Assembly (NCBI GenBank): GCA_030156825.1
Contig: JASGLU010000015.1
Coordinates: forward strand, 1-35,841
Direction of reading: 5' to 3'
DNA from: Candidatus Atribacteria bacterium
Lineage (GTDB): Bacteria; Atribacterota; Atribacteria; Atribacterales; JASGLU01
DNA: 35,841 bases
The notes under the pieces are model-generated. The model worked only from the letters and a program-made list of their open reading frames with translations. It was not told the DNA's origin and ran no database searches. Of this stretch, positions 28,080 to 34,330 are shown one piece after another. Within the stretch, counting starts at the first letter, position 1; every line of letters begins with the position of its first letter. The translations under genes were made by a program, and so were the position numbers.

Positions 28080-29063
28080 TCAACTGTAGATAACGTCTAC
28101 CACCTGAAAAGTGTTTAACCTCCGATTGGTGGAAGGCATCCATTTTATAGAAACCGGCCAAGCAAAATCTGGTTGAATTCTTCCTCGATGAAGCCAATAC
28201 CGAACTTCGTCATTTCGATATTGACCAACATTCATTCTCGCTACCAAAGTAAGGGGTTTATCTACCCAAATTACTTTTTGAATGGCAGCAATTCCTTGTA
28301 GTTCATGGGAAATACGAGATTGAATCTGGGGCGAAACCGAAGGACGAAGATTGACCAGAGCAATGTTTTCTTTAAGAGGTCCAATAATTTTTACATTAGC
28401 AATTTCAGCCGGGAAATGGTTTTGCTGAACAAAATCTAATAATAGTTGATTACTTTCTATTGCTGCTTGAGCATGAAACGAAGAAACAAGAGGCTTGTAT
28501 AAATGTTTCAAAAAACAGCCTTCTCGAACTTTATTTTCTCCCGTTCTTCTAACCGGTATTTGGAATTGATAGATAATATTCCAAATATCTTCTTTTTCCA
28601 ACTCAAACAGGGGAGAATAGGTGTTATCTAACAACTTAATCCCTCTTTTCCCCCAACTATCGCTTCGGTTAGAGCCACCAATAATTAAGCTATCTGCACC
28701 GAAAAAATTGCGGATAGTACCTAATTTAGCTTTTTTGGTACAGAGGTTACACGCAGGTCCTCCTTTTGCCACCGACTCAATAGTTTCCTGCCCCGGCAAA
28801 TAAAGGTGCTCCACCCCCAGAGTCTTTACTATAAACTCAATATTCTGGCGAGCTTGGCGAGAAAAATAAGGCCCCCAATCCACAGTACAGGCCAACACTT
28901 TCTCTCGGCTCAAAGCTAACAGGGCTAAAAAAAGGGCAACTGTACTATCCATTCCTCCGGAAAAGGCTACCACTACCTTAGAAAAAGAACAGGAAACAAC
29001 CCGCAACTGGTCAACAATAGCCCAAACCGAAGGAGAAGCAGATGTCAGGTTTTGGCTGGTCAT
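28080..29063 (-). CDS. PP-loop ATP pyrophosphatase, LarE-like sulfurtransferase candidate
   Basis: A 327-residue adenine-nucleotide alpha-hydrolase family protein. The PP-loop SGGMDS is at residues 35-40. Three cysteines are spaced as in iron-sulfur-dependent thiolases: Cys105 and Cys108 (CNLC) and Cys183 (EGC). The N-terminal half resembles LarE/TtuA-type enzymes that activate a substrate with ATP and insert sulfur. The C-terminal part (about 210-327) is unfamiliar to me. Partner larB/larC genes are not in the window, so a role in lactate racemase cofactor synthesis is not supported by context. It overlaps the S1-domain gene by four bases (ATGA). Confidence 0.7.
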   Translation of the reverse strand: MTSQNLTSASPSVWAIVDQLRVVSCSFSKVVVAFSGGMDSTVALFLALLALSREKVLACTVDWGPYFSRQARQNIEFIVKTLGVEHLYLPGQETIESVAKGGPACNLCTKKAKLGTIRNFFGADSLIIGGSNRSDSWGKRGIKLLDNTYSPLFELEKEDIWNIIYQFQIPVRRTGENKVREGCFLKHLYKPLVSSFHAQAAIESNQLLLDFVQQNHFPAEIANVKIIGPLKENIALVNLRPSVSPQIQSRISHELQGIAAIQKVIWVDKPLTLVARMNVGQYRNDEVRYWLHRGRIQPDFAWPVSIKWMPSTNRRLNTFQVVDVIYS

Positions 29064-31006
29064 TTTTTGAGACTATTTAAGATGGTGTTTAATTTCTCTC
29101 CTAAGACATCTCCCAAGGTAATTTTGCCATCCCCGGAAGAGTTATTTTGAATTTGATTTTTCTTCTCCTCTTCTTCTTCGGCTTGCTTGATGCTCAAACC
29201 AATCCTTTTCTCTCCATCGTCTAACTTTACGACCTTTACTTTGACTTTCTGCTTTTCTCGTAAAACATCCTTAGGAGAAGAAACTTTTTCCTCGGAGATC
29301 TCCGAGATATGGACTAACCCATCCCAACCCTTTTCCAATTCAACAAAGGCACCAAAGTCAACAATTCTAACCACCTGTCCAGAATGAACGCTGCCAACCG
29401 GGTATTTATTTTTGATTTCTTCCCATGGATCAGGTAAAAGAAGTTTCCGACTCACCACAATCCTCTGCTCGTCCGGCTTAAATTCAATGATTTTCACCTG
29501 AATTGACTGACCTTTTTTTAACACTTGGCTGGGGTGCCTTACCGGTTGCCAATCAAGTTCTGACAGGGGCAGTAAAGCTTCCACTTCCGGAGCTAACTCG
29601 ACAAAAGCACCAAAGTTCATTAATCTTTGCACTAAACCTTCCACCACATTACCTACCTGCCACTTATCAGAGGTTTCCTCCCAAGGATTCGCCCGAAGCC
29701 GCTTTAAGCTTACAACCACCTGCCGGTTATCCCGGTCAAGCTCAATCACTACTCCTTTGGCTAACTGGTTACGCCTCAGTACTTCATTCACCCGGTTAAC
29801 CCGCTTCCAGGATAACTCTTCTAAAGGAATTCTTCCTTCTACTCCTTCTTCTAATTCAAGCAACGCTCCAGCCGGATTAACTTTAGATACCCTAAATTCG
29901 ACTATACTGTCAACCGGGTATTTTTCTTCAATATTTTCCCATGGGTCAGGATAAACCTGCTTTAAACCTAAGGATAATCTTCTCTTTTCTTGATCTATTT
30001 CTAATACCCGAGCTTCCACCACTTCTCCTACTTTTACCACTTCTTGCGGATGCTTCACATAACCCCAAGAGAGGTCAGAAACATGAATTAGCCCTTCTAC
30101 TCCCTCCTCTATTTCTACAAAGACCCCAAAGTTTTTAACTGAAACCACTTTCCCTTTAACTAAATCCCCTTGGTGGAGAGTCTCTCCTATTTTCTCCCAT
30201 GGGTCAGGAGTTAATCTCTTCAGACTCAAGGATATCTCTTCTTTTTCGGGGTCAAAGGCAATTACTTTTGTTTCCACTTCTTTCCCTATCGGTAAAATAT
30301 TTTCCAATTTTCCCGGTCTTCCCCAGGAAACCTCTGAGATATGGAGCAAACCATCAATTCCACCTAAGTCTATAAAGGCCCCGAATTTAGTAATATTCTT
30401 AACTGTTCCTTTTCTGATCTGACCAATTTCCAGAGAAGACATGGTTTCGAGTTTTTTTCTATTCCGCTCTTCTTGCAAAACTTCTTTCCGAGAAACTACC
30501 ACATTCCGGTTCTTGCGATTGGCCTCAATCACTTTAACTGGAATAGTTTGACCTACTAAATCATCTAACTTTTGAGGAACAAAATCTACACAAGAAGCTG
30601 GTAAAAAAGCGTTGATCCCTATATCAACTACCAGACCACCTTTAACTCTTTTTTGAACTTTCGCATCTAAAGTTTTACCTTCTTTTTCGCTTTCTTCTAT
30701 ATCAAGCCAGGCTCCCCGATAACGAGCCCGCTCTCGGGAGAGCCATACATAACCTTGCTCGTCAATCCGAGTGACCATAACCCAGACTTGTTCTCCCTCT
30801 TCTAAGTGGTGTTCTACTTCTCCTTCTTTACCCCAAGCTTTTTCTCGGTAAGGGAGAATTCCTTCAGCCTTGTAGTTAATATTAAGAAAATACCCCTCTT
30901 CTCCTTTTTTTATTACCTTTCCTTTAACTATATCTCGGGGGTGCACTAAGCGGACATTATCCAAATTTGCGCTCAGTAGATTAAGATCCTTTTCTTCCTT
31001 CACCAT
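29060..31006 (-). CDS. rpsA: Ribosomal protein S1-like protein with seven S1 domains
   Basis: A 648-residue RNA-binding protein. I count seven consecutive S1/OB repeats of about 80-90 residues; repeats 3, 4, 6 and 7 have the clear FGxFVEL...LLHISE-type core, while 1, 2 and 5 are more divergent. Repeats 3-6 each end in a PWE linker (PDPWE or ANPWE). E. coli S1 has six repeats. A short tail (LGDVLGEKLNTILN) ends the protein. The start is ATG 31006 because GGAAGGAG lies just upstream; the longer frame from 31066 would run into the structured RNA. It binds mRNA on the ribosome, and the structured RNA directly upstream may also regulate it. Confidence 0.9.
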   Translation of the reverse strand: MVKEEKDLNLLSANLDNVRLVHPRDIVKGKVIKKGEEGYFLNINYKAEGILPYREKAWGKEGEVEHHLEEGEQVWVMVTRIDEQGYVWLSRERARYRGAWLDIEESEKEGKTLDAKVQKRVKGGLVVDIGINAFLPASCVDFVPQKLDDLVGQTIPVKVIEANRKNRNVVVSRKEVLQEERNRKKLETMSSLEIGQIRKGTVKNITKFGAFIDLGGIDGLLHISEVSWGRPGKLENILPIGKEVETKVIAFDPEKEEISLSLKRLTPDPWEKIGETLHQGDLVKGKVVSVKNFGVFVEIEEGVEGLIHVSDLSWGYVKHPQEVVKVGEVVEARVLEIDQEKRRLSLGLKQVYPDPWENIEEKYPVDSIVEFRVSKVNPAGALLELEEGVEGRIPLEELSWKRVNRVNEVLRRNQLAKGVVIELDRDNRQVVVSLKRLRANPWEETSDKWQVGNVVEGLVQRLMNFGAFVELAPEVEALLPLSELDWQPVRHPSQVLKKGQSIQVKIIEFKPDEQRIVVSRKLLLPDPWEEIKNKYPVGSVHSGQVVRIVDFGAFVELEKGWDGLVHISEISEEKVSSPKDVLREKQKVKVKVVKLDDGEKRIGLSIKQAEEEEEKKNQIQNNSSGDGKITLGDVLGEKLNTILNSLKK

Positions 31007-31039: not shown

Positions 31040-31220
31040 TTGTGGTCCCGCTTTGCGGTGTGCCAACCGCTTTGATCCTTACCCTCAAAAAGGTGGGTAT
31101 CCCCTCGGGGGAACTCTCGGTTCCTCCGAAGAAAGGATTCCCAGGATAAGAATGTTGGGTCAAAGCCACTTTGACATCACCCACAAAGCAGGACCACAAA
31201 CCGATAGACCATTTATTTTT
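31040..31220 (-). ncRNA. Highly structured RNA of about 180 nt, probable 6S RNA
   Basis: The strand downstream of aspS folds into one long irregular hairpin. The closing stem pairs 31198-31178 with 31062-31041 (about 20 pairs, one bulge). An inner arm pairs CCAAC (31158-31154) with GTTGG (31067-31063), then ATCC with GGAT and TGGG with CCCA. The apical helix is CTTCGG-A-GGAAC, loop CGAGA, GTTCC-C-CCGAGG (31131-31103). A small hairpin GTCAAAG/CTTTGAC (31175-31159) sits at the junction. Length, rod-like shape, own promoter and placement after hisS-aspS (as for Bacillus bsrA, from memory) suggest 6S RNA, which binds RNA polymerase. No terminator separates it from the S1 gene 34 nt on, so an S1 leader element is the alternative. 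The structure is far more certain than the family. Confidence 0.68.
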
Positions 31221-31227
31221 CTTCACC

Positions 31228-31256
31228 ATAATATCATATTAAGAGCCCCTTTTCAA
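31228..31256 (-). promoter_or_regulatory. Sigma-70-type promoter driving the structured RNA
   Basis: On the minus strand TTGAAA (31256-31251), a 17-bp spacer and TATTAT (31233-31228) each match consensus at five of six positions. The -35 box begins two bases after the aspS stop codon. Predicted initiation near 31220 is about 20 nt before the closing stem of the RNA. It gives the RNA and the S1 gene transcription independent of hisS-aspS. Confidence 0.78.
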
Positions 31257-31257
31257 T

Positions 31258-33012
31258 CTACTTGTTTTCCCGCAAAGAAAGCCCCAACTCTTCTAATTGT
31301 TGCTCATCTACCATTGAGGGAGCACCAGTAAGAAGGCAAACCCCTTTTTGGGTTTTAGGAAAAGCAATAACCTCGCGAATAGAGGTTTCTTTTGCCATTA
31401 ACATGACTAAACGGTCAAACCCCAGAGCAATACCTCCGTGGGGAGGACAACCAAATTGTAACGCTTCCAAAAAGAAACCAAATTTTTCCTGAATTTCCAG
31501 CTCATCCAACTGAAGAAGTCGGAAAATAGTATTTTGAAGGTTCTGATCAAAAATTCGAATACTCCCCCCTCCAACTTCAAAACCATTCAGCACCAAATCG
31601 TAAGCTTGTGCTCTCACTAACTGAGGGTCTTTTCCTATTAGTTCTAAGTCGGAATCCAAAGGAGCGGTAAAAGGATGGTGCACTGAATCCCATCGATTTT
31701 CTTCCTGATTCCACTCAAACAATGGGAAATCTACTACCCAGCAAAAACGAAAATTCTCCCCTATCATTCCCAGTGCTCTCCCCAAGCGGATTCTCAGGGC
31801 TCCCAAAAACTCGTTCAAGTTTTTTTCATTACCCCAACCCACCAGCAAGACTGCTTCCTCTTGAAATGAAAATTTAGCCAGCAGGCTTTCCCAAGCAGAA
31901 GGAACCATTTTAGACTTAAGGGGAGAAGAAATCTTTTGCGAAGTAGATCTAACCCAGGAAAGCGACAAACCTTTCTCTCTGGCCTCTTGAGATAGTTCAT
32001 CGGCCACCTTACGAGAAAACTCTCTCCAATGAGGAAAAAAAAGACCTTTAAAAACTAAATTCTCGGCCCCACCTTTTAAGACAGTAGAATCTTCTCCCTC
32101 AAAAAAGGAGGTAAGGTCTTCCATAACCAGGGGAATTCGTAAATCCGGCTTGTCTGTTCCATATCGGTTGAGCGCTTCTTGATAGGTCAAACGGGGAAAG
32201 GGAAGATTAAGGTTAATTCCCATAATCTCCTGAAAGACAATTCTCATCATTTCTTCTGTCAGCCGGATTACGTCGTCTCGATCGACAAAAGATAACTCGA
32301 TGTCAACTTGAGTAAACTCGGGCTGACGATCAGCCCGTAAGTCCTCATCTCTAAAACATTTAACAATTTGAAAGTAGCGGTCAAATCCGGCAATCATTAG
32401 AAGTTGTTTAAAAAGTTGAGGAGATTGGGGTAAGGCATAAAAAGTACCAACATTCAAGCGGCAAGGAACTAAAAAATCCCGAGCTCCCTCCGGAGTACTT
32501 TTAGTTAAAAAGGGAGTTTCGACCTCAATAAACTTTTCATCAGAAAGGAAACGGCGTATCGATTGCGCAACTTGGTGACGAAGATAAAGGTTATCCCACA
32601 TTTTTCCTCGTCGTAAATCTAAAAATCGATACCGTAAACGAAGGTATTCATCGACTTCTAATTCTTTTTTTTCTAACTCAAAAGGAGGAAGGGAAGAGGT
32701 CGAAAGAATTTTTAGTTCCTCGGTCTCTACTTCAATTTCACCGGTGGCTATTTTTAAATTTTCCAAACCATCCGGTCTTTTCCTTACCGTTCCTTGAACT
32801 TGAACTACGTATTCACTTCGCAAGGTATCGGCTAAGGAGTAAACCGAAGTATTTTTAGAATCAACCACTATTTGAGTTTTTCCCCATCGGTCTCGAAGAT
32901 CGATAAAAATTATGCCGCCATGGTGACGAACGCGGCTGACCCAGCCGGCCAAAGAAACTTTTTTCCCTATATCTTCTTTCCTCAATTCTCCACAAGTATG
33001 TGACCTTAACAT
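31258..33012 (-). CDS. aspS: Aspartyl-tRNA synthetase (bacterial type)
   Basis: A 584-residue class IIb synthetase. It has an N-terminal OB anticodon-binding domain ([20 protein letters not shown]), the catalytic core with [27 protein letters not shown] and [17 protein letters not shown], the bacterial GAD insertion in the middle, and the C-terminal [13 protein letters not shown] motif. Length is normal for the bacterial form. It overlaps hisS by seven bases, so the pair is translationally coupled, as in many Firmicutes. Whether it also charges tRNA-Asn cannot be told without knowing if asnS or gatCAB is present. Confidence 0.97.
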
Positions 33013-34289
33013 AAACTTTTCTCCTTTTGTAAAAGTCTTAAAAGTTCATCCTCTTGTAAAAAGACTTGGCTGCCACTTGTTAAATTTTTCAGAGAAAATC
33101 CACCACGTTCTATTTCTTCTTGTCCAACCATTAATACCCATTTTACTCCCGACTTTTGGGCTTTTTTTAAATGATAACGTAATCCTTTATCAGCAAAATC
33201 ACAGTAAAAAGGAACTCGCCATTTGGTCAACTCCCGTGCTAATCGAAGAACTTGTTTCTCCCCCTCTTCATCCAAGGGGGAGAGGTACAAGCAGGGAACC
33301 TTTTTTGGTCGAGTTTCCTGTTGGGTTTTTTCAAGCAGAAGGACGATTCTTTCTATCCCAGCAGCAAATCCCACTCCGGCAACTCCAGGAACCCCTAAAG
33401 CAGCCGATAGCTGATCGTACCTGCCTCCACCACCAATAGCATCTTGCGCTCCCAACTGGCCAGTTTTAACCTCAAAAGCAGTTTTAGTATAATAATCTAA
33501 CCCCCGAACTAAAAAGGGGTTAATCTGATAAGAGATACCTAAATTTTCTAAACCAGCCTCCACCTTAAATTGATGATTCCGGCAATCCGAGCATAAATAC
33601 TCCTCTATAACGGGGAAAGAAGGCGATTTAAACAAGTTTTGACATCCTTCTTCCTTGCAATCTAACACTCTAAGTGGGTTCTTTTCCAAACGACGCACGC
33701 AATTAGCACAAAGATTATCTTTTCTTTCTTCTAAAAATTTAGTTAGTTTAGACAAGTAAGATGGGCGGCACTTTTCACAGCCCAAACTGTTAAGTTCGAG
33801 GGTTAACTCACTTAAACCCAATTCTTGGTAAATTAAGTAAGCAACTAATATTATTTCCACATCTACCGCTGGCCTGGAAAAGCCCAGGGCCTCAAAACCA
33901 AACTGATGAAATTGGCGCATTCGACCAGCCTGAGGTCGCTCATAGCGAAACATAGGCCCTAAGTAAAACCATTTGACCCGCGGATTAGTAACTGATAATC
34001 CATGTTCAATATAGGCCCGCATAACCGGAGCGGTGCCCTCTGGTCGTAGGGTAATGCTCCTACCTCCTTTGTCCTGAAAGGTATACATTTCTTTTTGGAC
34101 AATATCCGTTTCTTCCCCCACTCCCCGAGCAAAAAGCTCGGTTTGCTCAAAAATAGGGGTTCGAATCTCCTGATATCCAAAAAGGTTGGCCATTTCTCTT
34201 ACTACTTCTTCCACTTTTTGCCACCAAACTACTTCTTCACCTAAAATATCTTTGGTTCCCTTAGGAACCGTAATTTTTTGCTGACCCAT
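33006..34289 (-). CDS. hisS: Histidyl-tRNA synthetase
   Basis: A 427-residue class II synthetase. Motifs seen in order are [20 protein letters not shown] (motif 2 region), [15 protein letters not shown], the histidine-binding [13 protein letters not shown] and GGGGRYDQL, then the C-terminal anticodon domain with [17 protein letters not shown] cysteine-rich stretch in the middle (CEKC, CANC, CSDC) is common in bacterial HisRS. I set the start at ATG 34289, since AGAGGG lies ten bases upstream; an in-frame TTG at 34298 is only one base from that site. It is coupled to aspS by an overlap. Confidence 0.96.
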
Positions 34290-34330
34290 CGTATCCAATC
34301 CCTCTTAACTTATTGAAATCATAGTCTCTT

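Follow-up and report, generated by a model that had tools for sequence, protein, structure and literature searches.

The window, that is, the whole stretch of 35,841 nucleotides analysed here from a contig of Candidatus Atribacteria bacterium, carries on its minus strand hisS, aspS, a 6S RNA, the gene of ribosomal protein S1, a PP-loop ATPase and alaS, all co-oriented, with a gap of some 250 nt between aspS and S1 (Table 1). The RNA adjoins aspS within this gap (aspS end 31258, 6S match from 31197), and the ATG of S1 lies about 35 nt past the 6S match. Among the named genomes found, the nearest AspS is that of Candidatus Caldatribacterium californiense (Atribacterota), with 66% identity. The PP-loop ATPase (window 28080-29063, minus), which stands between S1 and alaS throughout the window's order, gives weak matches to NAD synthase, QueC and PAPS reductase. 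In this order, hisS-aspS-6S-S1-PP-loop-alaS is retained at every locus that is long enough, and aspS-6S-S1 at the shorter ones; the exception is one genus (g10), in which the 6S RNA remains beside S1 and no longer adjoins aspS. At the g10 locus (L026:140-1182, genome G015) a DUF1538 protein and a P-II-like protein precede the 6S RNA in place of aspS.

Table 1. Features of the 6S locus in the window, with the basis of each assignment
Feature	Position	Strand	Basis or remark
hisS, next upstream gene	33006..34298	minus	TIGR00442, 485 bits
aspS, upstream neighbour	31258..33012	minus	NF001750, 804 bits
Predicted 6S promoter: TTGAAA, 17 nt, TATTAT, with TG before the -10 (extended -10)	31228..31256	minus	sigma-70-type consensus
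Predicted 5' leader before the closing stem	31198..31221	minus	inferred from promoter position
6S RNA, 157 nt	31041..31197	minus	RF00013 match over gathering score
Predicted product-RNA template GGCUUUGACCCAAC	31154..31167	minus	position by alignment to the 6S family
5' side of central bubble, AUUCUUAUCCU	31143..31153	minus	complementary to 31075-31085
3' partner of the predicted bubble-collapse helix, AGGGUAAGGAU	31075..31085	minus	part otherwise pairs in the inner arm
Ribosomal protein S1, downstream neighbour	29060..31006	minus	NF005208, 666 bits

6S RNA is a well-known small RNA that imitates an open promoter and thereby blocks RNA polymerase. The intergenic stretch between aspS and S1 encodes a genuine 6S RNA, in other words a known kind of RNA in the little-studied phylum Atribacterota. 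In a covariance-model search, the Rfam 6S model (RF00013) matches the minus strand from 31197 to 31041 over model positions 1-187, its full length, with a score of 69.1 bits (gathering score 46.4; E 8.3e-12), and this is the single match in the whole genome (1.98 Mb, 98 contigs). A preliminary description of this DNA, which gave no strand, had placed a probable 6S RNA between aspS and the S1 gene and had proposed the search with RF00013; the search bears it out, with a match well above the gathering score, and assigns the RNA to the minus strand. The match should be strong enough for routine Rfam-based annotation to pick up this RNA.

The same description had credited the segment with a promoter of its own, and this was found upstream as TTGAAA-17-TATTAT and is kept in relatives, the 17-nt spacing and near-identical hexamers preceding the 6S RNA in all 22 members of the order and in most other Atribacterota. 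The downstream end of the promoter lies 30 nt upstream of the 6S match, and to judge from the promoter sequence transcription should start near 31221; with the match reaching 31041, the interval 31040-31220, which had been given as the limits of the segment, is therefore close to the expected primary transcript. Promoter and length also suit the abundant, discrete RNA of about 160-200 nt that is typical of the 6S family. In line with the preliminary description, protein-coding content was rejected for either strand: a 92-aa plus-strand frame had no match in the Pfam search, and a longer S1 frame that begins with TTG and overlaps the 6S RNA was likewise rejected, ATG 31006, just past an AAGGAG site, being the better start of S1. 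No terminator was found in the window between the 6S RNA and S1. A promoter-like pair, TTGGCA-16-CACAAT, lies at the 3' end of the 6S RNA (window 31066-31039, minus; consensus match only), and the same pair appears in relatives with TTGACA or TATAAT variants, up to ATGGCA-16-TATAAT.

The 157-nt RNA folds with -83.1 kcal/mol, against -50.8 +/- 4.1 for its shuffles (z = -7.9; none of 200 as good), and the RNA strand of the 181-nt interval described earlier gives z = -6.4. The rod of that description is thus real, while its perfect apical helix is perfect on the plus strand only (where it includes G-U), the RNA itself having one A-C mismatch. Alignment A1, of 22 sequences from the window's order, yields a consensus rod of 45 pairs with 97.6% of the cells paired. 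Changes on both sides affect 16 of the 45 pairs (89 cells), as against 10.4 pairs and 25.5 cells in shuffled controls, and 2-8 pairs and at most 16 cells when the pairing is slid, counts that are biased towards the rod because the sequences are kin and the structure was derived from their own consensus; despite that bias, the margin over the controls is large. The apical helix alone contributes eight such pairs. The rod, with its closing stem, central bubble and apical stem, is thus kept by compensatory changes, and these changes among relatives, which the preliminary description had named as a test, are many.

At the edge of the bubble, the template CUUUGACCCAACA is near-invariant at the sequence level in the 22 sequences of the order; the near-invariant UUUGACCCAACA counts in support of 6S, and the template consensus across the phylum is UUUGA[CGA]CCAACA. 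The predicted product RNA, 5'-GUUGGGUCAAAGCC, would start opposite the C at 31154, the last C of CCAAC; the short RNAs predicted from the template begin GUUGGGUCAAAG, and 18 of the 22 members of the order are predicted to give the same product 14-mer. Compared with the pRNA of B. subtilis 6S-1, GUUCGGUCAAAACUA (PMC12005410), the predicted product is identical at 11 of 14 positions, a likeness that is weak alone, as three of the window's 14-mers reach an equally high score. What counts is rather the conserved position.

The two sides of the bubble also appear able to pair with each other (Table 1). Their complementarity reaches 11 of 11 pairs in the window's RNA, 7-11 of 11 in the order and 3-6 in other Atribacterota families. 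Two pairs of this collapse helix change on both sides in the order (A-U/G-C and U-A/C-G), representing few independent events, and 84.8% of its cells are paired there, against 36-54% when slid; in family f3 a single position of the helix is broken. For the free RNA, the prediction is a largely collapsed bubble and not an open one, which speaks against the 6S reading, although energies computed for 37 C and in the absence of polymerase have little bearing on the bound state. Holding the 5' bubble strand unpaired would cost 6.7 kcal/mol in the window's 6S RNA versus 0.4 in that of E. coli. In predicted folds with the 14-nt template blocked, mimicking a bound product RNA, the collapse helix forms in most members. 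According to PMC8876501, B. subtilis 6S-1 has a central-bubble collapse helix, and Aquifex is inferred to have one. The potential helix predicted for the window's order would match this B. subtilis type, joining the distal part of the 5' bubble to the inner arm's 3' strand. The E. coli 6S RNA (ssrS) belongs to the same Rfam family and has the same rod, but the same calculation gives it no collapse helix (-0.4 vs -6.7 kcal/mol).

We regard it as nearly certain that the locus holds the only 6S RNA (SsrS) gene of this member of the Atribacterota, with a product that would hold the polymerase and release it upon synthesis of a product RNA. The identity of the RNA, its structure and the conservation of its template are established here. 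Polymerase binding, product synthesis and release are expected from what is known of the 6S family, and would run as follows. Transcribed from its own promoter, the RNA would take the form of a rod interrupted by a central bubble. It would thus imitate an open promoter to the housekeeping RNA polymerase holoenzyme, which it would bind and hold back as long as nutrients were short. Once nucleotides returned, the polymerase would copy the bubble into a short product RNA starting GUUGGGUCAAAGCC; its synthesis would open the inner arm, the two sides of the bubble could then pair together, and the polymerase would be released.

The nearness of S1 admits other relationships between the two. The 6S RNA might double as the 5' untranslated region of S1, being processed from a joint 6S-S1 transcript, an arrangement that is compatible with the main reading and that we hold to be a serious, if somewhat doubtful, possibility: the window lacks a terminator and the gap from the 6S RNA to the ribosome-binding site of S1 is near zero throughout the order, but the promoter-like pair at the 3' end of the RNA, as a consensus match only, could drive S1 alone. 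A further step, in which the order's 6S RNA would form the 5' end of the ribosomal protein S1 operon, with its bubble closed when free, such that polymerase sequestration, 6S maturation and S1 synthesis would be coupled, seems to us unlikely. Finally, we consider it very improbable that the element acts in cis as the leader of the S1 mRNA, say as an autoregulatory device, and merely resembles 6S. In favour of this reading, only a few to some 35 nt separate the RNA in the order from the Shine-Dalgarno sequence or start of S1, with no terminator in the window, and genus g10 keeps it with S1 even where aspS is gone. Against it, the 6S model is matched in full, 5-formyltetrahydrofolate cyclo-ligase and not S1 follows the same RNA in other Atribacterota families, and both gene arrangements share the conserved template site.

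Returning to the 6S RNA gene, its distribution places 6S RNA firmly in Atribacterota. Rfam 6S is found in 41 of 50 Atribacterota genomes, with one copy each, and in a further five the RNA is seen by lineage model or by reading of the sequence. Three of these (G002, G010, G016) were recovered by lineage model R1, which was built from an alignment that includes them, all three having first been found by their position after aspS; in the other two the RNA is at least partly visible after aspS, one being cut by a contig end and one broken. In the remaining four genomes the S1 gene is at a contig edge, incomplete or missing. A true absence of 6S from the nine genomes without an Rfam match was thus rejected as far as can be seen, as three plus two have at least part of it and in four the relevant stretch is missing or at a contig edge. 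Our literature search found no paper joining 6S RNA and Atribacterota, and earlier reports, also of the arrangement aspS-6S-fau, are possible.

Like the 6S RNA of the window, B. subtilis 6S-1 (bsrA) lies downstream of aspS, according to work of 2002 cited in PMC12005410; the synteny given in the preliminary description is thus right, and aspS-6S linkage also occurs in the Bacillota loci below. The window's RNA differs from 6S-1 in being short (157 nt in the matched part), in having S1 downstream, where B. subtilis has yrvM, and in being the one copy found in its genome, versus two in B. subtilis (PMC8414754).

In other Atribacterota families aspS is followed in turn by 6S, 5-formyltetrahydrofolate cyclo-ligase (fau; PF01812, 165 bits) and S1, as seen at L011:1501-2390 and other loci of families f5 and f7 (L002-L027). 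The 6S RNAs of L002, L004-L019, L021, L022, L025 and L027 measure 220-236 nt, with an apical domain that is enlarged, conserved and apparently branched, and in those of family f7 the bubble also bears a 7-bp hairpin on its 3' side. The gene after ssrS in E. coli K-12 is likewise fau, coding for the same enzyme; fau is absent from the 6S locus in the window's order. Beyond the phylum, fau lies downstream of 6S in 7 of 29 loci and aspS linkage was found in none of 28 high-scoring 6S loci, both counts being minima because the scan used distant queries and 1.5-kb flanks. Of 38 non-Atribacterota aspS loci scanned, five have a 6S RNA within about 1.2 kb downstream, four in Bacillota and one in Caenarcanum, there on the opposite strand. 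Absences in a larger survey are meaningless, because its stricter filters dropped the window's own 6S RNA.

The sister families, having aspS and fau around the 6S RNA, therefore combine both classical settings, that of Bacillus and that of E. coli, and the window's order would represent a derived form that lacks fau. The combination suggests that a single older arrangement may have given rise to both settings, aspS in Bacillus and fau in E. coli.
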